From an uncultured Thermoleophilia bacterium (GTDB taxonomy: Bacteria; Actinomycetota; Thermoleophilia; UBA2241), in assembly GCA_903921965.1 (NCBI GenBank), contig CAIXSE010000533.1, positions 1 to 16,474 of the forward strand: a stretch of 16,474 nucleotides of DNA, in the 5' to 3' direction. The translations under genes were made by a program, and so were the position numbers. The notes below the pieces were generated by a model, which did no database searches, had not been told where the DNA came from, and was given only the letters and a program-made list of their open reading frames with translations. This document shows, piece by piece, positions 2,604 through 16,228 of the stretch; positions within the stretch are counted from its first letter, which is position 1; each line of letters starts with the position of its first letter.

Positions 2604-4055
2604 TCAGGCGCGCCGTGCGCGGCGCGCCGTGTCCTCGTCCACGCGGCAGATCGCCGCGAGCTCGTCCAGCCGGGAGCCGTCGACGTACGGCTCCCGCAGC
2701 GCGTGCGCGGCGAGCAGCGCCTCCACGCGCCCGCACGCGTCGTCGTACTCGGTCGTGCCCTGCTCCGCCCACTTGTCGTAGGAGAGCCTGTTCGACAGCG
2801 CCGGCAGGTGGTGCTCGCCGGCGCGGATGCGCTTCGCCGTCTCCTTCTGGCTCAGGAAGGAGCCGCCGGGCCCGGCCTTGGCGATGGCCTCGCCGCCCAG
2901 CGTGGCCTGCGAGACCTCGACCGGCCGGCTCAGGCGGCGCAGCATGCCGGCCGTCTCGTTGTCGATCACGCACTGCGGCAGCGACATCGTGTTGTGCGAG
3001 TCGAGCAGGCCCCAGCCGGTGACGATGTCGGGGCCGGCGGCGCAGACGGTCGCGGCCTTGACGGCCTTCTCGTAGCCGGCCTGCAGGTGCAGGTGCCGGG
3101 CGTCGGTCGAGAAGCCCGGGCACAGCACCGGCACGCCGATGTGGTGGCCGACCTCGGTGGCCATCGCCGCCATGAGGCCCGCCTCGACGGAGCCCAGGGC
3201 GAAGGTCGTCTGGCGCATGTCGAGGACCGCGGAGCCGAAGCAGAAGATGACGGGCGCGCCGGGCGCGGCGACCTGCAGCGCGGTCGCGATGCCGAGGAAC
3301 TCGGCGAGGCCCTGGGCGACGGTGCCCGCCAGCGTGACCGGCGAGGTCGCGCCCGCCACCGCCATCGAGTACACCTTGACCGGCACGCCGTGGCGGGACA
3401 GGGCGACGTGCACGTCGAGGATGCCGCCGTCGACCTGGAGCGGCGAGGCCGCGGTGACGACGGTGGAGATGCGCGGGCGGGCGCGGAAGCGCTCGAGGTC
3501 GCCCGCCATCGCTTCGCAGAGCCGCACGACGGCGTCGACCTCGGTGGGGCAGTCGACGAACGTGACGTGCTTGCGCGTCTCCGTGAGCAGCGTGAAGTAC
3601 TCGGTGAGCTCGCGGCGCTCGAGCGGCACGTCGGTCGCGCTGACCTGCGTCCACATGATGTCGAGCTCGGGCAGCTCGTCGTTCAGGGCCGTGCCCTCGC
3701 GCACGTCCTGCAGTGTGCTGGCGCGGCGCTCGCCGGTGCGGAAGTCGAGCGTCTTGGCGACGCACCCGCTGGGCGCGAAGTGGAACGGCTCGCCCTCGTC
3801 CAGCACCGCGTCGTCGGCCTCGGTGAGGCCGGCCATGACGATCCGGCGCGGGGAAGCGCCGATGGCCCACCTGACGAGCTCGCGCGGAAAGCGGACGAGG
3901 CCGGTGGCCTCGTCGACCGCCGCGCCGCGCTCCGCGAGCAGCGGCAGCGCCGCCGAGCCCGCGAAGCGCATGCCGACCTCGGCGAGCAGGCCGAGAGCCT
4001 GCTCGACGATCGCGTCCTTCTCGGACGCGTCCAGCCACGTCGTGTGCGCTCTCAT
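2604..4055 (-). CDS. MttB-superfamily corrinoid methyltransferase without pyrrolysine
   Basis: A 483-residue protein of the trimethylamine methyltransferase (MttB/COG5598) superfamily, which moves a methyl group from an amine to the Co(I) of a corrinoid protein. It can be followed along its length against archaeal MttB: FHFAPSGCVAKTLDF (91-105), VYSMAVAGATSPVTLAGT (228-245), and GFSTDAR (314-320), the segment where MttB has Gly-Thr-Pyl-Ser-Asp-Ala-Lys. Here Ser316 occupies the pyrrolysine position and the frame has no TAG. Members without pyrrolysine that are characterised demethylate quaternary amines such as glycine betaine, proline betaine, carnitine or gamma-butyrobetaine, so a quaternary amine is the best inferred substrate. 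ATG 4055 is preferred over GTG 4127 because family homology starts near it and GGGAG motifs precede it; GTG 4127 lies inside the operator-like repeat. The gene probably leads the left operon. Confidence 0.9.
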   Translation of the reverse strand: MRAHTTWLDASEKDAIVEQALGLLAEVGMRFAGSAALPLLAERGAAVDEATGLVRFPRELVRWAIGASPRRIVMAGLTEADDAVLDEGEPFHFAPSGCVAKTLDFRTGERRASTLQDVREGTALNDELPELDIMWTQVSATDVPLERRELTEYFTLLTETRKHVTFVDCPTEVDAVVRLCEAMAGDLERFRARPRISTVVTAASPLQVDGGILDVHVALSRHGVPVKVYSMAVAGATSPVTLAGTVAQGLAEFLGIATALQVAAPGAPVIFCFGSAVLDMRQTTFALGSVEAGLMAAMATEVGHHIGVPVLCPGFSTDARHLHLQAGYEKAVKAATVCAAGPDIVTGWGLLDSHNTMSLPQCVIDNETAGMLRRLSRPVEVSQATLGGEAIAKAGPGGSFLSQKETAKRIRAGEHHLPALSNRLSYDKWAEQGTTEYDDACGRVEALLAAHALREPYVDGSRLDELAAICRVDEDTARRARRA

Positions 4056-4212
4056 CTCCCGTACTCTCCCGTCGCCGTGTGCGGTCCCGCGCCGGGACGC
4101 GACATCCCGGCCGGCAGACTCTATCACGCTAATTGACCGGTCGATTAGTTCTCACGAGCCGGCCGTCGTCCTCGTCCGGCTGTGGTCGACACGGGCGCGA
4201 GCCTGCGATTAG
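4056..4212. other. Divergent intergenic region between the MttB-like gene and lasso B2
   Basis: This gap of 157 nt holds copy 1 of the 23-bp operator-like repeat (4127-4149), most of a promoter-like element for B2 (4184-4215) and a small hairpin in the MttB-like leader (GTCCCG-cgc-CGGGAC, 4084-4098). I found no convincing -35/-10 pair for the minus-strand gene. Confidence 0.5.
4127..4149. promoter_or_regulatory. Operator-like palindrome, copy 1 (identical to 14777-14799)
   Basis: The core TAATTGACCGGTCGATTA is a near-perfect palindrome (one mismatched pair) of the length and symmetry typical of TetR-family operators. It is identical over 23 nt to the sequence at 14777-14799. It lies 72 nt upstream of the MttB-like start and 64 nt upstream of lasso B2, so it could act on either or both. 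No regulator gene is in the window, so the TetR assignment is inference. Confidence 0.7.
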
Positions 4213-4215
4213 ATG
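4184..4215 (+). promoter_or_regulatory. Promoter-like element at the start of lasso B2 (shared with 5408-5439)
   Basis: GGTCGACAC followed by TTAGATG with identical spacing also occurs at 5408-5439; in both, the final ATG is the called start codon. Read as a promoter it is TCGACA-N17-TTAGAT, with 5/6 fit at -35 and a weak -10. If it is a real promoter, the transcript would begin a few nt inside the called gene and true translation would start slightly downstream (leaderless or from an alternative codon). It could instead be a protein-binding site. Confidence 0.4.
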
Positions 4216-4821
4216 ACCTCCTTGAACGACGTCGATGCGATAGCGGACTCCGCGTGCGCCTTCCGGTCCGGCCGCGTGCTCGGTACCGTTCTCCGCAAGT
4301 CGCGCTCGTGGCGCGCGAAGCCGCCTGCGGAGAAGGCCCTGATCCCCGTGGCCTTCGCGCTGCTCGGCGCGTCCCGGGCGGCGCTCCTCGTCGTGCCCTT
4401 CCGCCGCATCGCGCCGCTGCTGGGAGAGGACCTCGGGACGGCGGCCGTGGTGCCGCTGGCGGGTGAGCGGGAGGTCGCGCGCGCCCGGGCGGTCGCGCGC
4501 GCCGTCGAGACGGCGGCCCGGTACGCGCCCTGGCAGTCGCGGTGTCTCGCGCGCGCGATGACCGCGCGGGTCCTTCTCGGGGGCGCGGGCGTGCCGTACG
4601 CGCTGTTCCTCGGCGTGGCGAGAGCGGACGACGCCGACCTGCGGGCGCACGCGTGGGTCTGTGCCGGACCGGTGGGCGTCACCGGCGGCCGGCCGTTCGG
4701 CCGGTTCGCCGTCGTGGGCACGTTCGTCCCGCGGGCCTTCGCGCGCGCGTCGGGGCTTGCTCCCCGGACGTTGTGCCCGGACGCTCTGCCTGCCGATCCC
4801 GTGCGCTGGGGTGACGTGTGA
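4213..4821 (+). CDS. Lasso peptide leader peptidase B2 (transglutaminase-like cysteine protease)
   Basis: A 202-residue protein of the lasso B2 family (transglutaminase-like fold), which cuts the leader from the precursor once the RRE protein B1 has delivered it. The diagnostic block is [20 protein letters not shown] (103-122) with the nucleophile Cys111, then [14 protein letters not shown] and [10 protein letters not shown] with catalytic His146. The third triad residue is less clear: the acidic residue often seen right after HAWV is Cys150 here. The N-terminal 45-60 stretch is hydrophobic, as in many B2 proteins. No good ribosome site precedes ATG 4213; the ATG forms part of a promoter-like motif, so the true start may be slightly downstream. 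Its stop overlaps the GTG of the next gene by 4 nt. B1 is about 9 kb away in this cluster, an unusual separation. Confidence 0.88.
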
Positions 4822-5384
4822 CGGCGCGGCGCCCCGCGGACTGCCCGTCCGCCTTCGTGGTGTGGTTCACCGGTCTGTCGGGCTCGGGCAAGACGACCGT
4901 GGCCCGGGCCGTCCAGGCCGAGCTGGCGGACCTCGGCGTGAGTGCGACGGTCCTCGACGGCGACGACGTCCGGCGCGGTCTGTGCGCCGACCTCGGCTTC
5001 AGCGCGGCCGATCGCACCGAGAACGTGCGCCGGGTGGCCGAGGTCGCCAGGCTCTTCGTGGAGTCGGGGCGGGTGGTGCTGACCGCACTCATCTCCCCGC
5101 TCGAGGAGGACCGTGCCGCGGCCCGTGCCCGCTTCGCCCCGGGCACGTTCGTGGAGGCCTTCTGCGCCGCTCCGCTCGAGGTCTGCGAGCGGCGCGATCC
5201 CAAGGGCCTGTACAAGCGGGCGCGCGCGGAGGAGCTCGCCGACTTCACCGGGGTGTCCGCGCCGTACGAGGCGCCGCGCCGCCCCGAGGTCGTCGTGGAC
5301 ACGTACCGGCTGACGGAGCGGGAGTCCGCGCGCGCCGTCCTGACCTGCCTCGCGGACAGGGGGCTCCTCCCTCCCGGGGCGTGA
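4818..5384 (+). CDS. cysC: Adenylylsulfate (APS) kinase, CysC-like
   Basis: A 188-residue APS kinase, normal full length for a single-domain CysC. It phosphorylates APS with ATP to make PAPS, the sulfate donor. Visible features: P-loop GLSGSGKTT (19-27), [17 protein letters not shown] (46-62), DRTENVRR (65-72), ISP with Ser93, [10 protein letters not shown] (127-136), and the late FTGVSAPYE. All active-site blocks look intact. The GTG start at 4818 overlaps the B2 stop as GTGA, so the two are translationally coupled. In this context, with a sulfotransferase two genes downstream, it most likely supplies PAPS for a sulfated lasso peptide rather than for assimilation. No ATP sulfurylase is in the window, so APS would come from elsewhere in the cell. 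Confidence 0.92.
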
Positions 5385-5407
5385 GGTCCGCGCGCGGGGC
5401 TCCGCGC

Positions 5408-5439
5408 GGTCGACACTGCTTCCCTCATGCAGTTAGATG
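5408..5439 (+). promoter_or_regulatory. Promoter-like element at the start of the peptide kinase gene (shared with 4184-4215)
   Basis: Second copy of the GGTCGACAC...TTAGATG arrangement, with the same 29-nt distance from the first G to the A of the ATG and also sharing TGC three positions before TTAGATG. As a promoter it reads TCGACA-N17-TTAGAT. A transcript from it would start near 5445, where an in-frame GTG lies (5446), so a leaderless message is possible. It lies within the 52-nt gap after cysC. Confidence 0.4.
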
Positions 5440-6372
5440 GTGCGCGTGAGCCCCGACCGCAACGCCGCCCCGACCTACGCCTGCTACGGGCTGACGCTGG
5501 CCAGCGACGTACCGCTGCCCGAGCTCGCCGCGGCCGGGCCGCACGAGCCCGGCCGGGGACCCGACGTACGGATCTCCCGCGGTCCCGTCGGCGGTGAGGG
5601 CCTCGACGGCGGCCGGCAGATCGGCCCCTTCTGCCGGGTCGACGCCGGGCGTCTGTGGCTGCGTGTGCCCGGCGTGGCGCGGTATCTCGTGACCGACGGG
5701 ACGTCGATCGTCGTCGAGGCCGAAGACGGCGCCGACGACGACAGCGTCCGTGCCTTCCTGATGAGCTCGGGCTTCGCCGCGCTGCTGTACCAGCGCGGCC
5801 TCCTCGTCTTCCACGGCAACGCGGTGGGCCTCGGCGACCGTTGCCTCATGTGCCTCGGGCCGTCGGGGGCCGGCAAGTCCACGCTCGCCGCGGCGCTCAT
5901 GATGCGCGGTCACCCGATCCTGGCCGACGACGTCGTACCGGTCGACGACGCCTGCCGGGTGCTCCCCGGGCTGCCGCGGATCAAGCTCTGGGAGGACACG
6001 GCGGAGCAGCTGGACATCTCGACGGAGGGCCTGCGGCGCGTGCGCCCGGTGCTGCGCAAGTACAGCCTGCCGGTCCACGACGCCGTCCCGGCCGTGCCGC
6101 TCACCGTCGGCTGGGTCTACGTGCTCGGTACGCACCAGGCGCCGGACACGCGGATCGAGGCGGTCACCGGCATGGACCGGTTCCGGCCCCTCCGCGACAA
6201 CACCTTCCGCGCGCGCTTCATGGAGGGCATGGAGCTGGAGGCCGAGCACCTGCGGCTCTGCGGGCGGCTGGCAGGGCGCGTCCACCTCGCGCGGGTCACG
6301 CGCCCCGACCACGGCTTCGACATCGAGGACCTCGTCGACAGGATCCTCGACGACGCTGCCGCCAACGCCTGA
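5437..6372 (+). CDS. HPr kinase-like lasso peptide kinase
   Basis: A 311-residue protein with the HPr kinase/phosphorylase fold. P-loop GPSGAGKST is at 141-149, the preceding LLVFHGNAV carries the conserved His126, and ILADDVVPV (161-168) supplies the Walker B-like acidic pair. About 100 N-terminal residues are poorly conserved. HPrK-like enzymes in lasso clusters (the paeninodin kinase type) phosphorylate a serine in the C-terminal tail of the precursor; no PTS HPr protein is nearby. In this window the two precursors share a conserved Thr19-x-Ser21 near the tail end but neither ends in Ser, so the site may differ from paeninodin. The start ATG 5437 has no clear ribosome site; GTG 5446 is an alternative. 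It is followed by the sulfotransferase after 3 nt. Confidence 0.88.
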   Translation: MVRVSPDRNAAPTYACYGLTLASDVPLPELAAAGPHEPGRGPDVRISRGPVGGEGLDGGRQIGPFCRVDAGRLWLRVPGVARYLVTDGTSIVVEAEDGADDDSVRAFLMSSGFAALLYQRGLLVFHGNAVGLGDRCLMCLGPSGAGKSTLAAALMMRGHPILADDVVPVDDACRVLPGLPRIKLWEDTAEQLDISTEGLRRVRPVLRKYSLPVHDAVPAVPLTVGWVYVLGTHQAPDTRIEAVTGMDRFRPLRDNTFRARFMEGMELEAEHLRLCGRLAGRVHLARVTRPDHGFDIEDLVDRILDDAAANA

Positions 6373-6375
6373 GCC

Positions 6376-7227
6376 ATGGGCGGCAACTACTGGCTCGCGT
6401 CGTACCCGAAGTCGGGCAACACCTGGATGCGCGCCTTTGTGCAGAACAGCCGTCTGGGCGCGGAGGTCCCCGCCGACATCAACGAGCTGACGTCCGGGCA
6501 CCACGCCGCGGCGCGGCCGTGGCTCGACGACGTCCTCTGCTTCGCCACGTCCGACCTCTCCGCCGACGAGGTGGAGCGGCTGCGGCCCGTCGTGTGCGAG
6601 TGGATCGCGCAGGCCGAGCCGGTCGGCTACCACAAGATCCACGACGCCTACACGTTCACGGTGGACGGGGTGCCGATCATCGGGCGCGAAGGCACGTACG
6701 GCGCCCTCTACATCATCCGTAACCCGCTGGACGTGGTGCCCTCGGCGGCGCACCACTGGGGCTGCACGCTGGACGAGGCCATAGGACGCCTGGCGGCCCA
6801 CCAGGATCTCGCGGTGTCTCAGCGGTCGCTGCCCACGCAGGTCCGCCAGCGCCTGCTCACCTGGTCGAAGCACGTGCTGAGCTGGGCCGACGCGGCGGAC
6901 CTGCGCGTCATGGTCACCCGGTACGAGGACCTGCTCGGCGACCCGCTGTCCGAGTTCGCGCGCGTGGCCGGGTTCCTCGAGCTTCCGCACGACGAGGAGA
7001 GCGTGCGGCGGGCGGTGCGTTTCAGCAGCTTCGAGGAGCTGTCGCGGCAGGAGGAGCGGACGGGGTTCCGCGAGCGTCCGCAGAGGGCCGACAGGTTCTT
7101 CCGCAGCGGCACCAGCGGGGGGTGGCGCAAGGCTCTCTCGGAGGAGCAGGTCCGCCGCGTCGTCGCCGCCCACGGCGAGGTGATGGAGCGCTTCGGCTAC
7201 CTGGACGCCGCGGGAGACCCGGTGTGA
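6376..7227 (+). CDS. PAPS-dependent sulfotransferase
   Basis: A 283-residue cytosolic-type sulfotransferase. The 5'-phosphosulfate loop is YPKSGNTW (10-17). The 3'-phosphate loop is LYIIRNPLDVVPSAAHHWG (111-129) with Arg115 and Ser123. Near the C-terminus RSGTSGGWRKAL (243-254) stands in for the RKGxxGDWK adenine-loop motif. His89 in YHKIHD is the likely catalytic base. It transfers sulfate from PAPS to a hydroxyl or amine. Here the neighbour cysC provides PAPS, and the candidate acceptors are the precursors: both have Tyr17 (Asp16-Tyr17 in one, Tyr16-Tyr17 in the other) and Ser/Thr-rich tails. A sugar added by a neighbouring glycosyltransferase is another possible acceptor. The ATG lies 3 nt after the kinase stop and the gene's own stop overlaps the next GTG by 3 nt. 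Confidence 0.9.
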   Translation: MGGNYWLASYPKSGNTWMRAFVQNSRLGAEVPADINELTSGHHAAARPWLDDVLCFATSDLSADEVERLRPVVCEWIAQAEPVGYHKIHDAYTFTVDGVPIIGREGTYGALYIIRNPLDVVPSAAHHWGCTLDEAIGRLAAHQDLAVSQRSLPTQVRQRLLTWSKHVLSWADAADLRVMVTRYEDLLGDPLSEFARVAGFLELPHDEESVRRAVRFSSFEELSRQEERTGFRERPQRADRFFRSGTSGGWRKALSEEQVRRVVAAHGEVMERFGYLDAAGDPV

Positions 7228-8921
7228 GCGGCACCGGCGAGGACGGTCCATCGCCGGTGGCCGGACCCGCGCCGCCCCTGAGCGTGAAGGATCTGCTGAG
7301 GCGCGCCGCGGACCTCGCGGCGGCCCCTCCCGACCCGCGGCTGTCCCCGCTCGTGATCGAGCTGAGCCGCCGGGCTTTGGCGCAGGCGCCCGGCGACCCC
7401 GCCGTCTCGCTGGCCCTCGCGCGGGCGCTGCACGCGCACGCCCGGGGAGAGGAAGCGGCCGCCGTGTGTGACGAGGCCCTGGCTGCGCACCCCGAGGCGG
7501 TGGAGCTGGAGCTCGAGCGCCTGCTGCTGGCGATCCCCGTCGTCTACGAGGACGAGGGACAGCCCGCTCGCGCGCGGGCGGAGTACGCCGGGCGGCTCGA
7601 GGCGCTCGCCTCGCGTCTCGAGGGAGCGCAGGACGCGGTGCTCGAGCGCCTGGGGCGCAAGGCCCCCCGGTTCTCGCCGTACCTCCTGCCGTACCAGGGG
7701 CTCGACGACGCCCCGTTGCAGCGGCGGCTCGGGGCGCTCACGAGCCGGGCCGTGCGGGCCGCGTTCCCGTCTCCCTCCCCGCGGCGCGAGCTTCAGGCCG
7801 CCCGGGGCGAGCTGCGCGTCGGCTTCGTCTCGAACCAGTTCTTCTCGCACACCATCTGGCACATGATCACGCGCGGCTGGCTCGCCGGGCTGCGCGCCCG
7901 GGGTTTCGCCTGCTACGGCTACGCCGTCGGCGAGCAGACCGACGACTGCACGGAGGCGTCGCGGGGCGAGTGCGTGCGCTTCGTGCAGGGGCTGCGCCCG
8001 GTGGACGAGTGGGCCGCGGAGATAGGCGCCGACCGCCTGCACGCGCTCATCTACCCCGCCATCGGCTACTCGTCCGTGGTCGACGCACTCGCGCTGACCC
8101 GTCTGGCGCCGCTCCAGTGCACGACGTTCGGTCACTGCGAGACCACGGGGTTCCCGACGATGGACTGCTTCCTGAGCAGCGCGCTCATGGAGCCGCCGGA
8201 CGGCGACGCCCACTACACGGAGGAGCTCGTACGGCTGCCCGACGTCGGCCTGCCGTACTCGCCGCCCACCCTACGGCCGAGCGGGCGGGGACGCGACCAT
8301 CCCGGCCTGCGGCGGGACGCGGTGCTCCTGCTCAGCCCGCACCCCGCGAAGAAGTACCTGCCCGCGCACGACCGCCTGTACCCGCGCATCGCGGAGCGCA
8401 TCCCCGGGTCGCAGCTCGTCTTCTTCAGCGATCCGCACGTAGAGCGTGTCTCACGCCTCCTGGAGCGTCGCGTGCGGGCTGCCTTCGTGCAGCAGGGGCT
8501 CGACCCGGACGGCCGGGTGCTGTTCCTCGACCGGCTCGGGCGGGAGGACTACCTCTCGCTGCTCGTGGCCGGCGACGTGTACCTGGATGTCCCCGGGTGG
8601 AACGGCGGCACGACGACCGCGGAGGCCCTCGTGCACCACGTGCCGGTGGTCACCCTCGAGGGGCCCGTCGCCCGCGGCCGGATGGGGGCCGGCATGCTGC
8701 GGCGCGTTGGGCTGGAGGACTGCGTCGCCGTCACGCCCGAGGAGTACGTCGAGGTCGCCGCGCGGCTGGGCCGGGACGCGGCCGTCCGGGATGCGGTCCG
8801 CCGTCGCCTGGCCGCCACGGCCCACCGCATCCACGACGATGGAGCGCGGGTGGACGGGTTGGCCGGCTTCCTCAGAAGTGCCGCCGGCCGCACCGGCGAG
8901 TGCGGTCCCGGCTCCGGCTGA
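7224..8921 (+). CDS. OGT/SPINDLY-like (GT41-type) glycosyltransferase with helical N-terminal repeats
   Basis: A 565-residue protein. Residues 15-190 are helical and Ala/Leu/Arg-rich, with at least two TPR-like units (around 40-105). Residues 197-550 form the GT-B catalytic part typical of O-GlcNAc transferase/SPY relatives: LRVGFVSNQFFSHT (197-210) with His209, HPAKKYLP (373-380) with the nucleotide-binding lysine, VYLDVPGWNGGTTTAEAL (452-469), PVVTLEGPVARGRMGAGMLRRVGL (474-497). Such enzymes add a sugar from a UDP- or related donor to Ser/Thr (or Asn) of proteins. The expected acceptor is the Ser/Thr tail of the lasso precursors, by inference from position: GTG 7224 overlaps the sulfotransferase stop. 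The animal-enzyme His in NGHTT is Gly here, as can occur in bacterial relatives. It could be a general protein glycosyltransferase, but its place in the operon argues for peptide tailoring. Confidence 0.85.
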   Translation: MSGTGEDGPSPVAGPAPPLSVKDLLRRAADLAAAPPDPRLSPLVIELSRRALAQAPGDPAVSLALARALHAHARGEEAAAVCDEALAAHPEAVELELERLLLAIPVVYEDEGQPARARAEYAGRLEALASRLEGAQDAVLERLGRKAPRFSPYLLPYQGLDDAPLQRRLGALTSRAVRAAFPSPSPRRELQAARGELRVGFVSNQFFSHTIWHMITRGWLAGLRARGFACYGYAVGEQTDDCTEASRGECVRFVQGLRPVDEWAAEIGADRLHALIYPAIGYSSVVDALALTRLAPLQCTTFGHCETTGFPTMDCFLSSALMEPPDGDAHYTEELVRLPDVGLPYSPPTLRPSGRGRDHPGLRRDAVLLLSPHPAKKYLPAHDRLYPRIAERIPGSQLVFFSDPHVERVSRLLERRVRAAFVQQGLDPDGRVLFLDRLGREDYLSLLVAGDVYLDVPGWNGGTTTAEALVHHVPVVTLEGPVARGRMGAGMLRRVGLEDCVAVTPEEYVEVAARLGRDAAVRDAVRRRLAATAHRIHDDGARVDGLAGFLRSAAGRTGECGPGSG

Positions 8922-8940
8922 GCACACCGCCGGCGAGGGG

Positions 8941-10836
8941 TCAGCAGGGCGCGGTGTCCTCGAGCCACTCCTGCAGCAGGACGAGCGAGCGCGTGTTGCC
9001 GATGAAGCAGAAGTCGAAGTCGTCGCCCCCGGCTGAGCTCTCGGCGAGCGCGATCTGCTCGCGAAGCACGCGCCGGTCCACGAGGTCGTCGAGGGCGGGG
9101 TGCAGGGTGGCGTCGAGCGTCCGCGCGCGCTCGAGCGCGACGGAGACGGGAGGCACCGGTCCTCCGCGCGCCACGCGCGGTCCGAGGTCCTTGTCCGCCT
9201 TCCAGGTGATCCGGGGCGGCACCAGGCCGTGCACGGCGCGCCGGTGGAGGTAGCGCCCCATCCCGCCCGGCCCCAGCTTCTCGATGCTCGGGGTGGAGAG
9301 GTACTGCTGGACGAGGCGGGCGTCGCACAGCGGCCAGCGGTAGTCGACGCCGTGGGACGCGGCGAGCAGCGTGCAGCTCTCCAGGCGGGTGGGGATGTTC
9401 GGTCCCTCGAGATGGCGCCGCACGACGAACTCGTTGACGCGGCGGAACGCCGTGCTGAAGCGCGCCTGCTCGAGGAGGCCGGCGCGAAGGTCGAGGCGCT
9501 CCACGACGTCGGGCCGCAGCGGCAGGAACCGCAGCGCCCGCCGGGCTCCCTCGAGCAGCCCCGCGTTGTACGCCGGCATCTGGTGTCCGATCGCGGCCCG
9601 GCGGGCGACGCGCAGGGTGCGCCTCGCGGCGCTGCCGTGCAGGACCTCCCACAGCGCCGTCCAGCGGCGCGCGTCCTGGAGCTCCCAGTACACGTGCGTC
9701 CCCGAGTTGGAGACCGTCTGGTCCCCGCCGAACCCCGACAGGAGCGTGTGGATGTCCCGGAGCGCGCACTCCTCGTAGAACGGCACGTGCGCCAGCGCGG
9801 TCCCGTGGATCTCGGGGTAGCCGATCACGCGGAGCGCCCGTCGCCGGGCGTCGCCCTGGGGGTCGTACGGCAGGCTCGTGAGGACGTGGTTGTAGATGAT
9901 GCCGTGCTGCAGGCTGGTGGCCAGGATGAGCTCGGGCTCCTGCTCGTGGAGGGCGAAGCCGAAGGTGTGGAGCCGGTCGCCGGGGGTGCCCAGGATCCGT
10001 GCGGCCAGCGCCGTCACGGTGGCCGAGTCGAGGCCCCCGCTGTTCTCGGCGCCGACGCGCGCGCCGGCCGGCATGCGGCAGCGGACGGCCTCCGCGAGCA
10101 CCTCGCGGTAGTCGTGGACCCACCGCGGGTCGCGCCGTGCCGCGGCCGGCGCGTCGTCGCGCCACGTGTGCCAGCGGCGCAGCTGCGCACGCCCGCCGGA
10201 TGCCACGTGCAGCCAGTGCCCGGGGCGCAGCTTCAGGACGCCGCGGTAGGCGGTGGCGGTGACGCCCGAGGAGAGGCCGGCGAGGTGCCGGGCCATCCAG
10301 TCCGCGTCGGGTGTGAGCGCGAGGCCGTCGAACCGGCGGAGTGCCGCCACCGAGGTCGAGAACGCGAGCTCGTCGCCGTCGAGGTGGTAGTAGAGAGGCT
10401 TCACGCCGAGCGGATCGCGGGCGAGGAAGGCCTCGCAGCGCGCCGCGTCGAGGACGGCGAGGGCGAAGTCGCCGGTAAGGTGGCGGCACAGGTCGGTCCC
10501 CCAGCGCCGCCACGCCGCCAGCGCTAGGTGCGGGTCGGTGCACTCGGCGCACGTTCCGGCATCGAGACCGAGCCGAGCCGCCAGCGCCCGGCGTTCGTCG
10601 AGGCGTCCCCAGAAAGCGAGCGCCACTCCGGCTTCGTCGTCGCGGGCGGGCACGCACGTCTGGGGGAGAGTGTCCGCGTCACCGGACCGGCGTAGCTCGA
10701 CAAGAGCGGCCGTGCCCTGCCGCCAGCGGCCCTCGAGTTCGGGGCGGAGGTACGGCGCGAGGCCGTCGGTCCACCCGGCCAGCTCGCCCGCCGTCCGGGC
10801 GTGGTCGCCGGCGAACCTCAATGAGCCCGCGAACAC
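8941..10836 (-). CDS. Lasso peptide cyclase (asparagine synthetase-like macrolactam synthetase, C protein)
   Basis: A 631-residue asparagine synthetase B homologue. It adenylates the ring Glu/Asp side chain of the precursor and joins it to the new N-terminus. The N-terminal glutaminase-like half keeps GDFALAVLD (122-130) and RDPLGVKPLYY (140-150), but residue 2 is Phe, so the Cys2 nucleophile of true glutamine-dependent enzymes is missing, as expected for lasso cyclases that use an amine instead of ammonia. The PP-loop ATP site is SGGLDS (266-271). GTG 10836 is chosen because MFAGSLRF fits the family start and GGAAAG lies 5 nt upstream. The gene runs toward the GT41-type gene, with 19 nt between the two stops. 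It follows precursor A1 after 109 nt holding two hairpins and is probably co-transcribed with it. Confidence 0.9.
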   Translation of the reverse strand: MFAGSLRFAGDHARTAGELAGWTDGLAPYLRPELEGRWRQGTAALVELRRSGDADTLPQTCVPARDDEAGVALAFWGRLDERRALAARLGLDAGTCAECTDPHLALAAWRRWGTDLCRHLTGDFALAVLDAARCEAFLARDPLGVKPLYYHLDGDELAFSTSVAALRRFDGLALTPDADWMARHLAGLSSGVTATAYRGVLKLRPGHWLHVASGGRAQLRRWHTWRDDAPAAARRDPRWVHDYREVLAEAVRCRMPAGARVGAENSGGLDSATVTALAARILGTPGDRLHTFGFALHEQEPELILATSLQHGIIYNHVLTSLPYDPQGDARRRALRVIGYPEIHGTALAHVPFYEECALRDIHTLLSGFGGDQTVSNSGTHVYWELQDARRWTALWEVLHGSAARRTLRVARRAAIGHQMPAYNAGLLEGARRALRFLPLRPDVVERLDLRAGLLEQARFSTAFRRVNEFVVRRHLEGPNIPTRLESCTLLAASHGVDYRWPLCDARLVQQYLSTPSIEKLGPGGMGRYLHRRAVHGLVPPRITWKADKDLGPRVARGGPVPPVSVALERARTLDATLHPALDDLVDRRVLREQIALAESSAGGDDFDFCFIGNTRSLVLLQEWLEDTAPC

Positions 10837-10872
10837 AGGTGCTTTCCGGCGCGGGCGGGGACGACGCGTGCC

Positions 10873-10936
10873 GGCCGCGGTGCCCGCGGCCCGAGGCGAA
10901 GGTCCCCGGCGGCGTCGAGGGCCGGTGTCGCCGGGG
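10873..10936 (-). repeat. Two consecutive RNA hairpins between precursor A1 and the cyclase
   Basis: Starting 10 nt after the A1 stop on the minus strand, CCCCGGCG / CGCCGGGG (10904-10911 with 10929-10936) forms an 8-bp stem, followed by GGCCGCGG-tgc-CCGCGGCC (10873-10891), an 8-bp stem with a 3-nt loop. There are no T-runs. A stem at this place commonly reduces read-through or protects the precursor message, so that precursor exceeds enzyme; that role is inference here. Confidence 0.5.
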
Positions 10937-10945
10937 CCGGCCGGC

Positions 10946-11119
10946 TCAGTTGGGGCCGCTGCTCGTGAAGTAGTAGCCGGTGCAGCTGACGAACTCGAAG
11001 GTCTTGGGCTGGTTGCCGCTGCTTGTGCCTTGTGTGACGCCGAGCGCTGTCAGCGTGGGCGCCGCGTACTGCCTACGTGCACCTGAGCTCGCGACGCTGC
11101 TGTCGCTGCTGGAATCCAT
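10946..11119 (-). CDS. Lasso peptide precursor A1
   Basis: A 57-residue precursor found by reading the minus strand upstream of the cyclase. The leader carries Tyr18, Pro21, Leu23 and Gly27 in YAAPTLTALG, the YxxPxLxxxG signature bound by the RRE protein, then VTQGT ending in Thr32. If Thr is the -2 residue, the core is 24 residues starting Ser34 (SGNQPKTFE) with a Ser1-Glu9 ring; if the core starts at Gly35, the ring is Gly1-Glu8. Glu42 is the only acidic residue in the core. The tail is FVSCTGYYF then TSSGPN, with a single Cys at core position 13 (Ser1 numbering). Start ATG 11119 has a GGGGG ribosome site and its own promoter (11167-11195). The paralogue at 11531 agrees at 13 core positions. 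Confidence 0.88.
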   Translation of the reverse strand: MDSSSDSSVASSGARRQYAAPTLTALGVTQGTSSGNQPKTFEFVSCTGYYFTSSGPN

Positions 11120-11120
11120 G

Positions 11121-11143
11121 TCGCCCCCGGTTTCGCTGGATGA
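11121..11143 (-). repeat. 23-nt identical 5' leader, copy in front of A1
   Basis: The 23 nt directly upstream of A1 (one base before the ATG) are identical to 11691-11713 in front of A2. The element includes the AACCGGGGGCGA ribosome-site region. Identity of non-coding leader beyond the ribosome site, while the core peptides have diverged, points to a recent duplication or to a conserved untranslated regulatory function. Confidence 0.75.
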
Positions 11144-11166
11144 TGCGAGGATCGCCGAGCACGATC

Positions 11167-11195
11167 ATGCTAGCCCGCAGCCCGGGGCGTGTCCA
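11167..11195 (-). promoter_or_regulatory. Promoter of precursor A1
   Basis: On the minus strand TGGACA (11195-11190), 17 nt, TAGCAT (11172-11167). The same layout lies upstream of A2. The expected start near 11160 leaves a leader of about 41 nt. A short inverted repeat GATCG-N7-CGATC (11150-11166) lies directly downstream of the -10, over the predicted start. Confidence 0.6.
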
Positions 11196-11530
11196 TGCCG
11201 GCGTCCGTTCCCGCTCCGGTTTCGCCTCCGCGGTCCGAGGTCCTCCCCGGGAGCGGGTCCGCAGCGGACCTCGGGGCTGCCGGCGTCAAGCGGTGCAGCA
11301 TGCTTTCGTGGGTGACCGCCCAGTCGTCAGGCATCGGCGGGGAGCAGGGAGCGAAGCATCCGGACGGCATGACCGGACATCCGGCCGTCCGGCCGCCGTC
11401 TCTCGACGATCGCGCGGACGCAGTGGTCGCTGTCCGGGCGCCGAGACGGGACGGGACGCCGGCCGCGCTTGCGTCCCGAGGTGAGGACCCCCGACGGCAT
11501 CACGCGCCGACGCCCTCGGGGTCGTCCGGG
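11196..11530. other. Spacer between the two precursors, no gene recognised
   Basis: This stretch separates A2 from the A1 promoter. It contains two stem-forming sequences: CCGAGGTCC / GGACCTCGG (11235-11243 with 11266-11274) and CCGGACGGC / GCCGTCCGG (11360-11368 with 11384-11392). Either could end or stabilise the A2 transcript, though no T-run follows. The open frames here on both strands have no recognisable domain or ribosome site, and I found no third precursor. Confidence 0.5.
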
Positions 11531-11689
11531 TCAGACGTTGCTGGTCGTGAAGTAGTCGAAGGTGCACCCGACGAACTCGCAGAAGCTCGGCTGCTGGCCG
11601 CTGCGGGTCCCCTGGGTGACGCCGAGCTCCGTGAGGGTGGGCGCGACGTACTGCTTGCGCTCAGTGCTGTTCTCGCTGCTGTGATCCAT
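11531..11689 (-). CDS. Lasso peptide precursor A2
   Basis: A 52-residue paralogue of A1. The leader has Tyr14, Pro17, Leu19 and Gly23 in YVAPTLTELG, then VTQGTR with Thr28. The predicted core of 23 residues starts at Ser30 (SGQQPSFCE, ring Ser1-Glu9) or of 22 at Gly31 (ring Gly1-Glu8). The tail is FVGCTFDYF then TTSNV. It has two Cys, one in the ring (8) and one just after it (13, Ser1 numbering), so a ring-to-tail disulfide (class III-like) is possible, unlike A1 with only Cys13. Positions Ser1, Gly2, Gln4, Pro5, Glu9, Phe10, Val11, Cys13, Thr14, Tyr17, Phe18, Thr19 and Ser21 agree with A1. Start ATG 11689 with a GGGGG ribosome site; promoter at 11737-11765. Confidence 0.88.
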   Translation of the reverse strand: MDHSSENSTERKQYVAPTLTELGVTQGTRSGQQPSFCEFVGCTFDYFTTSNV

Positions 11690-11690
11690 T

Positions 11691-11713
11691 TCGCCCCCGG
11701 TTTCGCTGGATGA
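11691..11713 (-). repeat. 23-nt identical 5' leader, copy in front of A2
   Basis: Identical to 11121-11143 and at the same distance from its start codon. It ends where the A2-specific inverted repeat begins a few nt upstream. Confidence 0.75.
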
Positions 11714-11717
11714 CGCA

Positions 11718-11741
11718 AACGTCGGTTTGAACGCCGATGTT
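11718..11741. promoter_or_regulatory. Inverted repeat over the A2 promoter (candidate operator)
   Basis: AACGTCGG-N8-CCGATGTT: 8-bp arms with one mismatch, overlapping the predicted -10 and start point of A2. A repressor bound here would block A2. A1 lacks this sequence, so the two precursors may be controlled differently. No candidate regulator is in the window. Confidence 0.5.
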
Positions 11742-11765
11742 ACTTACCCTGCCGGCGCATGTCCA
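11737..11765 (-). promoter_or_regulatory. Promoter of precursor A2
   Basis: On the minus strand TGGACA (11765-11760), 17 nt, TAACAT (11742-11737), the same -35 and spacing as A1 and a -10 differing at one base. It starts a transcript near 11730 with a leader of about 41 nt. It lies between the stop of the family-4 glycosyltransferase gene and A2. Confidence 0.6.
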
Positions 11766-11789
11766 CGCAGCTTTCCCGGTCCCGCCTCC

Positions 11790-12983
11790 TCAGGACGCGT
11801 CTCTGCGGCCCAGCATCCTCTGGAGGAAGTGGTCGACCGTGCGCCGGTACGCCTCGGGCGTGAAGCGCCGCAGCGCGTCCGCCTGGGCTGCCGCGACCGC
11901 CGTCCGCAGCTCGGCAGCCGTCAGCCGGTGCACGCGCAGCACGGCGTCCTCGATCTCGTCGATCGAGCAGGTCTCGAGCAGGGTCCCCGCGCCCTCGGGC
12001 ACGGTGATGCCGCAGTCGCGCGACACGATCGGGTAGAGGCCGATCTTGAGGCAGGTGACGACGGCCGGTGAACCGGCCTCGGCGCAGGATGGCGCGACGA
12101 GGGCGCAGCAGCGCCTGGTGAGCGCGGCGAGCTCGCGCCCGTTCGGGGGCAGCTGGCCGTACACGTGGATGTTCTCGAGCTCGGTCAGCTCCCGCCGGTA
12201 GGCCCTGACGAAGTCGGGGTCCTGGAGCAGGGCGCCGCCGACCACGTGCAGCGTCAGCTCGGGGTGCCGGGCGAACACCTCGAGCACGAGGTCCAGCCCC
12301 TTGTGCGCCGCTCCGGCCCCGAAGAACCAGAGGAACTCGCGCTCGTCGGGCGCGAGCGCGCCGGGAGGCTTGCCGTGCGTGCCGATGAAGGACCCGGGCG
12401 ACGTCACGAGCTGCATCTTGTGGTGGTGCTCGGGTGGGTAGGTCGCGAGCGTGTGCTCGTTGCCGTTCAGGAGGGCGGCGTCGCACAGGTCGAGGGCACG
12501 CCGGATGGCTTCCGGTTCCTGGATGCGGCGGCGCGGCCTGCATGCCGCGCCGCGCCGCTCGTTGAGGGCCAGCACGCGCTCCTGCTCCGCGGCGTTGTGG
12601 TAGTACGGGTCGCTGAAGATGAGGTAGAGGAGCTTGACGCAGCCGGCGGGAAGCTCCCGGGCGAGTCGCTCCAGGCCGGCGCCGACGTCCATCACCACTT
12701 CGTAGGGCCGGTCGGGATGGAAGCCGCGGTCGAGCCAGTGGACGCCGCGCACGTTGTAGCCCTGCGCGACCAGTGCGCGGGCCAGCTCGCGGTCGTCGCG
12801 CAGGATCGCGTGTCCCTTGTGTGCGAGCAGGTCGTCGTCGGCGGTGAGGACCCAGGGCCGGTGGAAGCTGAGCAGGGCCCACGGCCGCTCCAGCGTGTCG
12901 GGGCGCCCTCTCGGGCGCAGGCGCCTCACTTCGTACCCCCGCGCCGCCAGCAGTCTCTTTGCCACGTCTTTCGCGGCGCGCAC
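11790..12983 (-). CDS. GT4-like (GT-B) glycosyltransferase
   Basis: A 397-residue GT-B fold protein. The C-terminal domain shows the group 1/family 4 pattern: FFGAGAAHKGLDLVLEVF (220-237), LTLHVVGG (244-251), NIHVYGQLPP (271-280) and PSCAEAGSPAVVTCLKIG (298-315) with Glu302 in the nucleotide-sugar site region. The N-terminal domain is less conserved. It would transfer a sugar from an NDP-sugar; acceptor unknown. GTG 12983 is chosen since AGGAGG lies 6 nt upstream. It is divergent from the B1 gene and lies just upstream of precursor A2 on the same strand, so it is likely part of the lasso cluster and may glycosylate the peptide, possibly extending a sugar placed by the GT41-type enzyme. It could also be a cell-envelope enzyme. 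Confidence 0.82.
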   Translation of the reverse strand: MRAAKDVAKRLLAARGYEVRRLRPRGRPDTLERPWALLSFHRPWVLTADDDLLAHKGHAILRDDRELARALVAQGYNVRGVHWLDRGFHPDRPYEVVMDVGAGLERLARELPAGCVKLLYLIFSDPYYHNAAEQERVLALNERRGAACRPRRRIQEPEAIRRALDLCDAALLNGNEHTLATYPPEHHHKMQLVTSPGSFIGTHGKPPGALAPDEREFLWFFGAGAAHKGLDLVLEVFARHPELTLHVVGGALLQDPDFVRAYRRELTELENIHVYGQLPPNGRELAALTRRCCALVAPSCAEAGSPAVVTCLKIGLYPIVSRDCGITVPEGAGTLLETCSIDEIEDAVLRVHRLTAAELRTAVAAAQADALRRFTPEAYRRTVDHFLQRMLGRRDAS

Positions 12984-13108
12984 CTGCGACCTCCTGCCCG
13001 GTGGGACCCGACGTCCGGTATCCTAGCCGAGTGACCGGGCGGGGATGCAGCGTCCGCCCGGCCGGCACGTGCACGGAATCGCGTCCAGCGCACCTGAGGA
13101 GGAAGCCT
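12984..13108. promoter_or_regulatory. Divergent promoter region between the GT4-like gene and B1
   Basis: A 125-nt gap between two genes that point apart, so it should hold promoters for both. TATCCT (13019-13024, plus) and its complement TAGGAT (minus) are possible -10 boxes, but I see no matching -35. Strong ribosome sites stand at both ends. Confidence 0.35.
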
Positions 13109-13390
13109 GTGAGCGGCATCCAGGGCGACAGCGTCGTCGTCCGCGACCCCGACATGATCGCCGCCGAGATGGACGGCGACCTTGTCATGATGAGCGTCGA
13201 ACGTGGTGCCTACTTCGGTATCGGCGGGGTCGGCACCAGGGTCTGGGAGCTCCTCGAGCAGCCGCGCAGCGTGGACCAGCTGTGCGCGGCGATCGTCGCC
13301 GAGTACGAGATCGACGAGGCCACGTGCCGCACAGACGTCACCGCGTTCGTGCAGCGGCTGCTCGACGAGAAGCTGGTGAAGCCGGCCTGA
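13109..13390 (+). CDS. Lasso peptide RRE protein B1 (PqqD family)
   Basis: A 93-residue PqqD-like protein, normal length for a stand-alone RiPP recognition element. It binds the YxxPxLxxxG part of the leader and hands the precursor to B2 and the cyclase. Seen features: DGDLVMMSVERGAYFGIGGVG (22-42), matching the beta-hairpin and GxYFxLNxVG block, WELL (46-49), then helices ending in FVQRLLDEKLVKPA. GTG 13109 is chosen because GAGGAGGAA precedes it by a few nt; the frame is open further upstream but without family similarity. The nucleotidyltransferase gene follows after 48 nt, so the two probably share a transcript. Confidence 0.88.
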   Translation: MSGIQGDSVVVRDPDMIAAEMDGDLVMMSVERGAYFGIGGVGTRVWELLEQPRSVDQLCAAIVAEYEIDEATCRTDVTAFVQRLLDEKLVKPA

Positions 13391-13438
13391 TGCGGTCCCC
13401 TGCCGCGATCGTGCCGGGACCGGCCCGGCGAGGGCGCG

Positions 13439-14665
13439 ATGGACGCGCCTGACGATCTCCGCCGGCTGCTGCTGGACCTCGTGTCGACGGAGCACGAGGT
13501 CCGGTCCCGGGTGGCGGGCCTCGACCGCGGCGCGTGGGACGCCCTGCTCGCGTGCGCCGCGGAGCACCGCGTGAAGCCCCTGCTCCACTGGCGCCTCGCC
13601 CACGAACGCGCGGACCTCGAGGTCCCCGCCGAGGTCCGCTCGCGGCTCGCGGACGCCTACCTGCAGGCCACCCTGCGGGCGCTCAAGATCGAGCGGGAGC
13701 TGATCCGCGTGGTGCGCACCCTTCGGGAGGCGGGCATCCCGTGCGTGGCGCTCAAGGGCGCCTACCTCGCCTACCACGTCTACCCGGAGCCGGCTCTGCG
13801 GCCCCTCAAGGACCTCGACCTGCTCGTGCCCGCCGCCGACGCGCGGAGGGCGCACGACGTGTTGCTCGGCGCCGGGTTCGGGCGGACGCCCACGTTCAGC
13901 GGCGACGCCGCGACGTGGGCGTCGAAGCTCCACCACCTGCCGGCGCTCCGCCCCCCCGGCGGCGTGGCCGTGGAGCTCCACCACAGGCTCGAGATGCCGG
14001 GCGGTCACCGCATCGGGGACTGGGAGCGTGGCGGCGTCTGGAGCCGGCTCGTCGAGGTCCCGGTGGCCGGCGAGACGGTGTCCTACCTCTCGCCGGCGGA
14101 CGCCCTGCTGCACCTCGTCGTGCACGGGCTGTACCAGCACCGGCTGGACAACGGCCCGCTCACGCTCGCCGACATCGCGGCCCTCGCGAGGACGGGCGCG
14201 GTGGACTGGACGCTCTTCTGGCGTCTCGCCGCCGAGGGCGGGTACACGCGTGCCTGCGAGCTCCTCTTCGCGCTCACCGGGCACTACTTCGGGCCGCTGC
14301 CGGTGGAGGCCGCCCCGACTGCCGACCCGCTGCCCCGGGACGGCGCGGCGCTGCTCCCGCTGTGCGCGGGCCTGCTCATGCGAGGCGAGAAGGCGGCTGC
14401 CGATGAGCGCCTGGTGGGCTCCCTCGCCGGCAAGGGCGCGGGCGGCAAGGCGACGCTCCTGCTCGGCAAGGCGGTGCCCGCGCGCGCCCACCTGGCCATC
14501 ACGTACGACGTCGATCCCACCTCCGCGCGCGCCTTCCTCTACTACGTGCCGTTCTGGGTGCGGCTCGCGCGCAAGAGGGTGCCGGAGCTCGTGAGCCGGC
14601 GCCACGCGGTCACGAGCACGGCCCGTCAGATCGCCGTGCTCGACGACTGGCTGGCGCGGGGGTGA
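13439..14665 (+). CDS. Nucleotidyltransferase-family lasso tailoring protein
   Basis: A 408-residue protein of the large NTP-transferase family (Pfam NTP_transf_5 type) often found in lasso clusters. The key block is ALKGAYLAYHVYPEPALRP (104-122) then LKDLDLLVP (123-131), with the metal-binding pair Asp125 and Asp127 and Lys106 nearby. Family-typical VELHHRLEMPG, LSPADALLHLVVHGLYQH and IAALA follow. The molecular role is poorly known. In the pseudomycoidin system a relative works with the HPrK-like kinase and adds hexose to the phosphorylated tail; a similar partnership with the kinase at 5437 is inferred. ATG 13439 with AGGG upstream is the start. It is the last lasso-cluster gene, 112 nt before the TAG-gene operator. 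Confidence 0.85.
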   Translation: MDAPDDLRRLLLDLVSTEHEVRSRVAGLDRGAWDALLACAAEHRVKPLLHWRLAHERADLEVPAEVRSRLADAYLQATLRALKIERELIRVVRTLREAGIPCVALKGAYLAYHVYPEPALRPLKDLDLLVPAADARRAHDVLLGAGFGRTPTFSGDAATWASKLHHLPALRPPGGVAVELHHRLEMPGGHRIGDWERGGVWSRLVEVPVAGETVSYLSPADALLHLVVHGLYQHRLDNGPLTLADIAALARTGAVDWTLFWRLAAEGGYTRACELLFALTGHYFGPLPVEAAPTADPLPRDGAALLPLCAGLLMRGEKAAADERLVGSLAGKGAGGKATLLLGKAVPARAHLAITYDVDPTSARAFLYYVPFWVRLARKRVPELVSRRHAVTSTARQIAVLDDWLARG

Positions 14666-14742: not shown

Positions 14743-14771
14743 TTGACATGACCACGTGCCTGCGGTGTAGT
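14743..14771 (+). promoter_or_regulatory. Promoter of the mtbB operon
   Basis: A perfect -35 TTGACA (14743-14748), 17 nt, and -10 TGTAGT (14766-14771). Transcription should begin near 14778, the first bases of the operator copy at 14777-14799, a classic repressor arrangement. Confidence 0.7.
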
Positions 14772-14833: not shown

Positions 14834-16228
14834 TTGACCGACGAAGCCCGTATCCCGACCCGCATGGGCGACGGCACCTTCGCGCGCATGACGCGCAGCG
14901 AGATCCGCGCCGACCTCGAGGCGGGCGTGGCGATGGCCGTGAGGCGCGCCAAGGTCGAGCCGCTCACCGACGACGAGCTCGACCACCTGCTCGAGATCTA
15001 CGCCTCGCCGGTGCGCTTCATCGGCGTCGATGTGGGCGACGAGATCGTCCTCTCGTGCGACGGCACCGGCATGAAGACGCACGCCACGCGCATCGGCGAC
15101 CTGCAGAGCTACGAGCAGTGGATGGGCGCCGACCTCCTGGAGCTCTGCGTCGGCGACTATTCGCTCAAGGTCGTGCGCACGATCCTCGCCTACGAGGCCC
15201 AGTACATGCACGACGCCCAGCTCTGCACCATCGCCCCGCTGCAGTACGGGGTGATGACCAACCTCGGCCTCTACTCGAAGCCCGACGGCCCGTTCGACAA
15301 CTGGAACGAGCTGCTGCCGCTGAACCGCATCGCCGAGGCGCGCGCCAGTGAGGAGGAGGCCGTCGAGATGGCCGTCCTCGACATGGTCAAGCTCGCCGAC
15401 TCGCAGTGGGAGGCCGGCGCCGACGCCATCGACTGGGACACGACGGGAGCCTCCGGCGACCCCGAGTTCCTGGCCGCGCTCAAGGCCACGAAGATCATCC
15501 GCGAGAAGTACCCCGACATGGGCGTCGAACTGGGTATGGCCGGTGAGTTCGTGCTCGGCATGCACGGCGAGCTCGAGTGGGGCGGCAAGCGCCTCGCCGG
15601 CCTGTGGCCCAAGGACCAGCTGCTGCTGGCCCAGGAGGCCGGGGCGACGATGTTCGGGCCGGTGGTCAACATCAACACCGGCAAGAGCCTCGCCTGGAAC
15701 ATCGCCCGGGCGATCGCCCTGATCAAGCCTTGCATGGAGGTCGCGAAGATCCCCGTGCACCCCAACGCCGGCATGGGCGTGGGCGGCGTGCCGATGTTCG
15801 TCTACCCGCCCGGCGACGCGACCTGCCGCGCCGCCAAGGCGTTCACCGAGCTTCTTCACGTGGACGGCTTGTAGGCCGGCTCGGGCGATCCCCACGGGAT
15901 GCACAGCGCCCACGCGCAGGCTGCGAGTCTCGGCGGAATACGGGCAGGCGGAGACCTGGTTGCCCGGATGCAGATGACTCGGGGCATGCGCCTCAAGGAA
16001 GCGAAGCAGTACGTGGCCGACAAGGTTGGCGTGACGCCGTTCGACCTCGGCGACCCGGTGGTCATGACCGACGTGCGCAACGAGTACGGCTTCGGCCGCA
16101 TCCACAGTTACGCGATCAGCCAGCCGCAGCAGGCCAACCAGATCGAGGCCAAGTTCAACATCTCGCGCGTGCTGGACGTGCCGATCAACTGCGTCGAGCG
16201 CTTCAAGGAGAGGACGGCCGGCGCCTGA
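14834..16228 (+). CDS. mtbB: Dimethylamine:corrinoid methyltransferase MtbB with in-frame TAG (predicted pyrrolysine 347)
   Basis: Transfers a methyl group from dimethylamine to a cognate corrinoid protein; cytoplasmic. The N-terminal RMGDGTF, the middle GLYSKPDGPFDN and DWDTTGASGD, and LGMHGELEWGGKRLAGLWP, GATMFGPVVN and GMGVGGVPM closely follow archaeal MtbB. After VDGL a TAG (15872-15874) appears, then the same frame continues for 117 codons: IRAGGDLVARMQMTRGMRLK and an end NISRVLDVPINC are MtbB C-terminal features, ending in TGA. Reading TAG as one residue gives 464 residues with pyrrolysine at 347; M. barkeri MtbB is 467 with pyrrolysine near 356. TTG 14834 is chosen because GGAGGGGAGG lies 5 nt upstream and family similarity starts there; ATG 14783 lies inside the operator, at the transcript start. 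A split pseudogene is unlikely since both halves are intact and in frame. Confidence 0.9.
15872..15874 (+). other. In-frame TAG, predicted pyrrolysine codon
   Basis: TAG preceded by GTG-GAC-GGC-TTG and followed by GCC-GGC-TCG-GGC, inside conserved MtbB sequence at the family's known pyrrolysine position. All 15 complete genes of the window end in TGA, so TAG is not used as an ordinary stop here. The pylTSBCD genes needed for decoding are not in the window. Confidence 0.87.

Follow-up and report, generated by a model that had tools for sequence, protein, structure and literature searches.

An in-frame TAG in the pyrrolysine column of mtbB from an uncultured Thermoleophilia bacterium, with codon and hairpin conservation around it

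The mtbB locus and its neighbourhood

Near the end of the window, i.e., the whole stretch of 16,474 nucleotides that was analyzed here, lies a dimethylamine methyltransferase gene with one in-frame TAG, which is followed directly by the beginning of mttB and preceded by a lasso-peptide cluster and a divergent MttB-like gene. The features to which this section refers are as follows.

14834..16228, + strand: mtbB, [dimethylamine--corrinoid protein] Co-methyltransferase; runs from a TTG start to a TGA stop with a single TAG in frame, product of 464 residues
15872..15874, + strand: TAG, codon 347 of mtbB, the predicted pyrrolysine codon
16254..16474, + strand: 5' part of mttB, 73 codons, cut by the window end; relatives have a TAG at codon 328
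2604..4055, - strand: MttB-superfamily gene without in-frame TAG; 328 bits against TIGR02369, under the Pyl-MttB equivalog cut-off of 525
14743..14771, + strand: promoter-like TTGACA-N17-TGTAGT, identified by eye; similar in L002, L003, and L006
14779..14798, no strand: 20-bp near-perfect palindrome CTAATTGACCGGTCGATTAG, operator-like by sequence, upstream of mtbB
4129..4148, no strand: second, exact copy of the palindrome sequence, upstream of the divergent MttB-like gene

The original prediction had described a TAG that splits mtbB and a frame that then stays open, and translation of 14834-16228 bore this out: 346 residues lead to the TAG (codon 347), and 117 further codons to a TGA, giving a protein of 464 residues. 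By eye, a GGAGG-like site lies ahead of the TTG start, and TGA is the stop codon of all 13 complete window genes translated, mtbB included. With the TAG read as a residue, the product matched PF09505 (Dimeth_Pyl) with 540 bits over profile positions 4-462 of 463, and it exceeded the equivalog cut-off of NCBIfam TIGR02368 (dimeth_PyL; 402.2 bits vs 369.1). No solved structure similar in sequence to MtbB was found at E 0.001. Ordinary ORF calling, as had also been foreseen, placed mtbB in two pieces, one of 346 aa from the TTG at 14834 and one of 109 aa from 15899; the mechanical ORF list begins the first piece at 14783 (363 aa). In the databases, 105 of the 120 matches listed, of 1089, carry the cut form of 336-347 aa.

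A scan of genome contigs provided 43 related loci (L numbers), which were translated in the matched frame. The mttB gene downstream was matched in 21 loci and followed in 12. In 11 of these, codon 328 is an in-frame TAG, as would be expected for mttB, and one (L040) stops early; in L041, mttB does not adjoin mtbB. The mttB element PYLIS_3 was present in all three loci tested (L002, L005, and L006). In L007, the mttB frame from 11440, when read through its TAG, overruns the usual end and meets further TAGs at codons 492 and 508, a later TAG probably being the true stop.

Upstream of mtbB, the order of an FGGY kinase, an SDR, a 3-hydroxyisobutyrate-dehydrogenase-like gene, and the MttB-like gene on the other strand was kept in six relatives (L001, L002, L003, L006, L007, and L042); an AsnC-type regulator gene stands between the MttB-like gene and mtbB in L002, and L004 retains the MttB-like gene of this neighbourhood. 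L006 also carries a Molybdenum/tungsten cofactor riboswitch at 19489-19658, approximately 8 kb from mtbB. In the window, the neighbourhood kept by the six relatives is interrupted by a lasso-peptide cluster that spans roughly 10.5 kb (4213-14665) and comprises genes for a B2 protein, an APS kinase, an HPr-kinase-like protein, a sulfotransferase, a TPR/GT41 protein, a cyclase-like AsnB, a GT4 protein, a PqqD-type B1, and an NTP_transf_5 protein. The B2 and PqqD-type B1 proteins scored over their NCBIfam cut-offs and the cyclase-like protein under its cut-off; by these matches, the lasso cluster that had been claimed to adjoin mtbB is real. Two similar small ORFs on the - strand (10946-11119, 57 aa, and 11531-11689, 52 aa) share the motif YxxPxL..LG, which we take to be the lasso leader motif. 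They had no NCBIfam match and, judged from sequence, are likely to be the lasso precursors. At E 1e-10, the 43 loci contained no match to the nine cluster genes tested; since those loci extend no further than 10 kb from mtbB, the cluster could sit elsewhere in the genomes of the relatives.

Copies of the palindrome with 1-4 mismatches occupy the corresponding position ahead of mtbB in L001, L002, L003, L006, and L042, and none was found in L004 or L007 when up to 5 mismatches were allowed. Four shuffled palindromes gave 2-10 matches over all loci searched, and matches at 5 mismatches were therefore regarded as noise. By its position just downstream of the promoter-like TTGACA-N17-TGTAGT, the palindrome looks like a repressor site, and since it is common to the promoters of mtbB and of the MttB-like gene, one repressor may control both. 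The window has two copies, which flank the lasso cluster and have 23 bp in common (by eye), and the five relatives having the palindrome possess one; the two copies may be separate operators or may have arisen by duplication upon insertion. A further candidate, that the pyl genes are under the same operator as mtbB, was rejected, as the palindrome (up to 5 mismatches) was absent from the pyl regions L074-L087.

The in-frame TAG and its predicted decoding

Alignment placed the TAG in the pyrrolysine column, as originally predicted: all 43 genes that reach this column, namely those of the window and of 42 related loci from several phyla, have TAG there. The 43rd locus, L042, stops short of it and was not counted. 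In comparisons with 10 relatives, pN/pS was 0.22-0.55 for the part before the TAG and 0.17-0.25 for the part that follows, which had the lower value in all 10 pairs. Furthermore, 78 mtbB matches were obtained in 21 of 399 Thermoleophilia genomes, and 77 of them contained exactly one stop, a TAG; the 78th spans profile positions 40-213 only. Since no more than four candidates were scored in each genome, these mtbB counts are lower bounds. In G001-G013, mtbB was present as several divergent paralogues in a genome, with up to 14 first-look candidates in G003. The observation of the frame, the in-frame TAG, and the continuing family C-terminus was confirmed as real, and a sequencing error, chance, or a pseudogene is very unlikely to account for this TAG, given its conservation and the purifying selection after it.

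If the TAG were a true stop, leaving a pseudogene or a 346-residue protein with a separate C-terminal piece, the two ORFs of ordinary calling and the 346-residue form in databases would be accounted for, as would a window in which ARAGORN found no tRNA and the 14 ORFs scanned included no pyl gene. Such a reading is very improbable in view of the TAG shared by 43 of 43 genes across several phyla, the continued purifying selection, and the pyl genes in relatives described below. As a separate observation, the mtbB genes of L012, L014, and L019 have a TAG at the pyrrolysine column and a further one as the first stop met in frame beyond the matched stretch, so that TAG seems to act as a stop there too.

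The best mtbB matches were to MAGs titled Thermoleophilia or Actinomycetota, with L001 at 88%, and the genomes of the best-matching loci belong to the same class as G003, which its title describes as an uncultured Thermoleophilia MAG. In an IQ-TREE phylogeny of 40 MtbB rows (without L010, L033, L041, and L042), the window fell within a Thermoleophilia branch of 20 rows with support of 100/100, L001 being nearest by path; the other 20 rows are, by title, Desulfobacterota, Deltaproteobacteria, Spirochaetota, and Bacillota. The genome had been called actinomycete-like, which proved right at the level of the phylum, Actinomycetota, the relatives being Thermoleophilia.

The pyl genes were searched for in 13 Thermoleophilia genomes (G001-G013), scores over cut-off being counted, and in Candidatus Formimonas warabiya (G014) as the positive control, in which all six (pylSc, pylSn, pylB, pylC, pylD, and pylT) were found. 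Among the 13 genomes, pylSc, pylSn, and pylB were each over cut-off in 12, pylC in 13, and pylD in 11, with a twelfth pylD split over contig ends; pylB of G008 was not over cut-off. A DNA match to tRNA-Pyl over 73 bases, at 88-100%, was present in 12 of the 13. Twelve genomes have pylSc, pylSn, and the tRNA-Pyl gene, and ten have all six genes. In G001, the genome of the best-matching locus L001, neither pylSc nor pylD was over cut-off and neither pylSn nor pylT was found; it does have pylB, plus pylC at a contig edge.

Of the 13 Thermoleophilia regions submitted to ARAGORN, three (L074, L079, and L083) yielded a tRNA-Pyl call, and these are the three with the tRNA-Pyl DNA match. An Rfam search of six pyl regions (E up to 1) missed the tRNA-Pyl of L074 that ARAGORN found. 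Eleven of the 12 Thermoleophilia copies were folded, that of G009 lying too close to a contig end, and all gave a cloverleaf with the anticodon loop CTCTAAA (CTA anticodon); in those of L088 and L096, the anticodon stem contains a single mismatch. The acceptor and T stems showed compensatory paired changes among the Thermoleophilia copies.

In the 399 Thermoleophilia genomes, scanned with E-value limits of 1e-20 for pylS, 1e-60 for pylB, and 1e-30 for mtbB (the three draws being taken as the same set), pylS was found in 19, pylB in 19, and mtbB in 21. Of the 21 genomes with mtbB, 20 also had pylS or pylB, and neither gene was found in the 378 others; the exception among the 21, G103, has mtbB with neither pylS nor pylB found. 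The gaps in G001 and G103 say little because these are draft genomes. Across the phylum around G003, 396 genomes yielded pylS in two (G003 and G017), both of which were also in the class draw. The pyrrolysine trait is scattered in one class, and none was seen elsewhere in the 396-genome phylum sample. The cognate corrinoid protein (TIGR02370) was over cut-off in nine of the 13 Thermoleophilia genomes and in G014, and no corrinoid-binding domain was detected among the 14 window ORFs scanned.

Decoding of the TAG by an ordinary amber-suppressor tRNA, and not as pyrrolysine, would have to be considered insofar as the pyl gene content of the window's organism is known through its relatives. The co-occurrence of mtbB with pylS/pylB, the tRNA-Pyl called by ARAGORN in three relatives, and the same tRNA at 88-100% in 12 of 13 Thermoleophilia genomes all argue against such a suppressor, to which we attach very little credence. 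A PylRS/tRNA-Pyl system whose genes lie in another part of this uncultured Thermoleophilia genome very probably decodes the mtbB UAG as pyrrolysine; on the gene sets of the relatives, we infer that the organism's pyl genes lie outside the window. The original assignment as a pyrrolysine-encoding dimethylamine methyltransferase is likewise supported by the TAG column, the TIGR02368 match, and the pyl genes in close relatives. Insertion of pyrrolysine at the UAG would yield the intact 464-residue MtbB. The substrate of MtbB and the role of its pyrrolysine are established for the family. The window's enzyme would accordingly be expected to have pyrrolysine 347 in its active site and to transfer a methyl group from dimethylamine to a corrinoid protein; the product of the mttB directly downstream would perform the same reaction for trimethylamine.

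Codon choice and hairpin around the UAG

Three features surround the codon itself:

15869..15871, + strand: TTG leucine codon before the TAG, fixed against codon bias according to codon counts in set 1 and hold-out
15872..15971, + strand: match to Rfam RF02509 (PYLIS_2, the mtbB element), starting exactly at the TAG; 57 bits (gathering 36), E 1.2e-11
15941..15966, + strand: predicted RNA hairpin at 70-95, the T of TAG being position 1; the window has the loop AGAC, and relatives show compensatory synonymous changes

Two sets of genes were compared. Set 1 consisted of 42 genes (the window and 41 loci), without L042, which ends before the site, and L041, whose 100 nt are identical to those of L019. 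The hold-out consisted of 38 of 43 loci, L217, L220, and L241 being dropped as already in set 1 and L218 and L238 as lacking the motif; its search pattern permitted any Leu codon before the TAG. Composed of same-class paralogues and relatives plus one Bacillota order, the hold-out is not independent in kind.

The codon before the TAG was TTG in 41 of the 42 set 1 genes (CTG in one), and TTG in 26 and TTA in 12 of the 38 hold-out genes. The glycine codon at +26 was GGA throughout (42/42 and 38/38). Over the 80 mtbB genes of both sets, TTG or TTA precedes the TAG in 79, and all 80 use GGA for Gly+26. These choices run against codon usage: in 22 Thermoleophilia mtbB genes, TTG accounts for 37 of 868 Leu codons, 21 of the 37 standing at the pre-TAG site, and GGA for 47 of 966 Gly codons, 22 of the 47 standing at +26. 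A pattern search located 26 distinct mttB-type sites; here the TAG was preceded by G in 20, A in 3, T in 3, and C in none, and where the preceding codon was Leu, it was TTG (6/6).

The window hairpin folded at -17.5 kcal/mol within 32 nt (z -3.68), its stem holding a G-G mismatch, and six relatives hand-picked from four groups gave z values of -2.79 to -5.66. As a control for relatedness, the hairpin triplet was ranked among all nested triplets that third-position pairs form along the gene. In set 1, it ranked 1 of 3759 by covariation (two-sided compensation) and 1 by pairing, the runner-up triplet elsewhere in the gene reaching a covariation of 0.224 vs 0.225 with less pairing; since it was in set 1 that the hairpin had been noticed to begin with, this test taken by itself is circular. 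In the hold-out, the triplet ranked 1 of 3753 by covariation and 3 by pairing. The sets favored different single pairs. Pair 75-90, the best in the hold-out, ranked 369 of 5609 in set 1 (43% Watson-Crick, 76% with G-U), and pair 72-93, the best in set 1, ranked 970 of 5653 by covariation in the hold-out (39% Watson-Crick). The evidence for the hairpin hence rests on the nested triplet, and generality is claimed for the core 74-91 only. Pair 72-93 as a general pair was unsupported in the hold-out and was discarded, and pair 73-92 was weakly paired there (29%).

The covariation score of the whole Rfam PYLIS_2 structure was reached by none of 500 shuffles and lay above those of all slid versions. 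Its helix 2, which is the hairpin, showed compensatory change in both set 1 and the hold-out, with 88.7% of cells paired. In helix 1, 69.6% of cells were paired and three pairs had changed on both sides, and 5 of its 11 pairs were unpaired in at least 11 of 29 sequences. Taken as evidence from aligned genes, there are unusually clear signs that the mRNA around the mtbB UAG is under nucleotide-level selection.

What this selection serves may be considered in two ways. The synonymous constraint and the hairpin might not concern decoding, and might instead reflect, for example, protein binding to a palindrome in the DNA, the stability of the mRNA, or the masking of an internal RBS-like GGAGA before the ATG at codon +32. 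The GGAGA is invariant in 30 aligned sequences, with the ATG 13 nt on in nearly all, the hairpin is some 70 nt past the codon, and pairing evidence alone cannot separate RNA from DNA. For such a role outside decoding, which we consider somewhat less likely than not, the obstacles are that the constraint extends to the codon immediately preceding the TAG, which points to decoding, and that the two near-invariant hairpin pairs are G-U (40 and 42 of 42 in set 1), which fits RNA. In addition, the background given in the accessible part of PMC3639795 cites an E. coli study in which synonymous PYLIS changes lowered the amount of pyrrolysine protein.

We tentatively propose, with slightly less than even confidence, that in bacterial mtbB the UUR before the UAG and an AGAY-loop hairpin about 70 nt downstream, common to genes of Thermoleophilia, Desulfobacterota, Spirochaetota, and Bacillota, programme the decoding of the UAG, as distinct from plain amber suppression, so that its readthrough would exceed that at other UAG stops in the cell. 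The two elements may act by favoring readthrough over termination.

Comparison with known systems

Pyrrolysine mtbB is already known, and pyrrolysine genes in Actinobacteriota are already in print. The passages available from a 2023 study of Stordalen Mire (PMC10805028) describe Actinobacteriota MAGs expressing pyrrolysine mttB and mtbB, with the genus Bog-752 named among the most active, and a 2025 review (PMC11764691), as far as accessible, counts two Actinobacteria among 81 bacterial PylRS. The novelty originally ascribed to pyrrolysine in a genome of this type was consequently overstated. Apart from one soil-geochemistry paper, a literature search that took in few subscription papers returned none joining Thermoleophilia with pyrrolysine. 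For the mtbB region, a consensus structure was proposed in 2013 (PMC3639795), which in its accessible part treats the need of a cis signal for pyrrolysine as an open question; the UUR-UAG codon context was not found in that part of its account of the mtbB structure.

Against this background, the Thermoleophilia gain a well-supported gene, whose protein ordinary annotation halves, together with a scattered but consistent pyl gene set. The 80 mtbB genes yield a sharp, testable prediction, comprising two fixed synonymous codons and one hairpin, and not a general structure. These genes suggest methylamine use in uncultured actinobacteria, possibly in competition with methanogens for the same substrates.

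The window's gene resembles the Pyl-MtbB of methanogens and bacteria in its near full-length match over the equivalog cut-off, its TAG column, and PYLIS_2; the host differs in being a member of the Thermoleophilia, whose MtbB rows form their own branch (100/100) apart from the 20 other rows. The Stordalen Mire MAGs are alike in phylum and genes, and L007 comes from a MAG named bog_752. In the passages available from that study (PMC10805028), Pyl-MttB was recognized by truncation at the amber codon, and the pyl gene set, the RNA element, and a lasso neighbour do not appear in those passages.

With respect to Rfam RF02509, the hairpin supported in this study corresponds to the second one in the model. 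Beyond that model and the accessible part of PMC3639795, 42 genes and 38 hold-out genes were tested here against all third-position pairs; pair 78-87, unpaired in the Rfam model, was added, the UUR-UAG context was described, and the pairing of helix 1 was found to be poorly kept (69.6% of cells).

Finally, the split PylRS (pylSn and pylSc) of Candidatus Formimonas warabiya has its counterpart in 12 Thermoleophilia genomes, where the two parts likewise gave separate matches. The gene orders differ: in G003, pylB, pylC, pylD, pylT, and pylSn follow in succession on one strand with pylSc on the other, whereas in Candidatus Formimonas warabiya, pylT, pylSc, pylB, pylC, and pylSn lie on one strand with the pylD match elsewhere.
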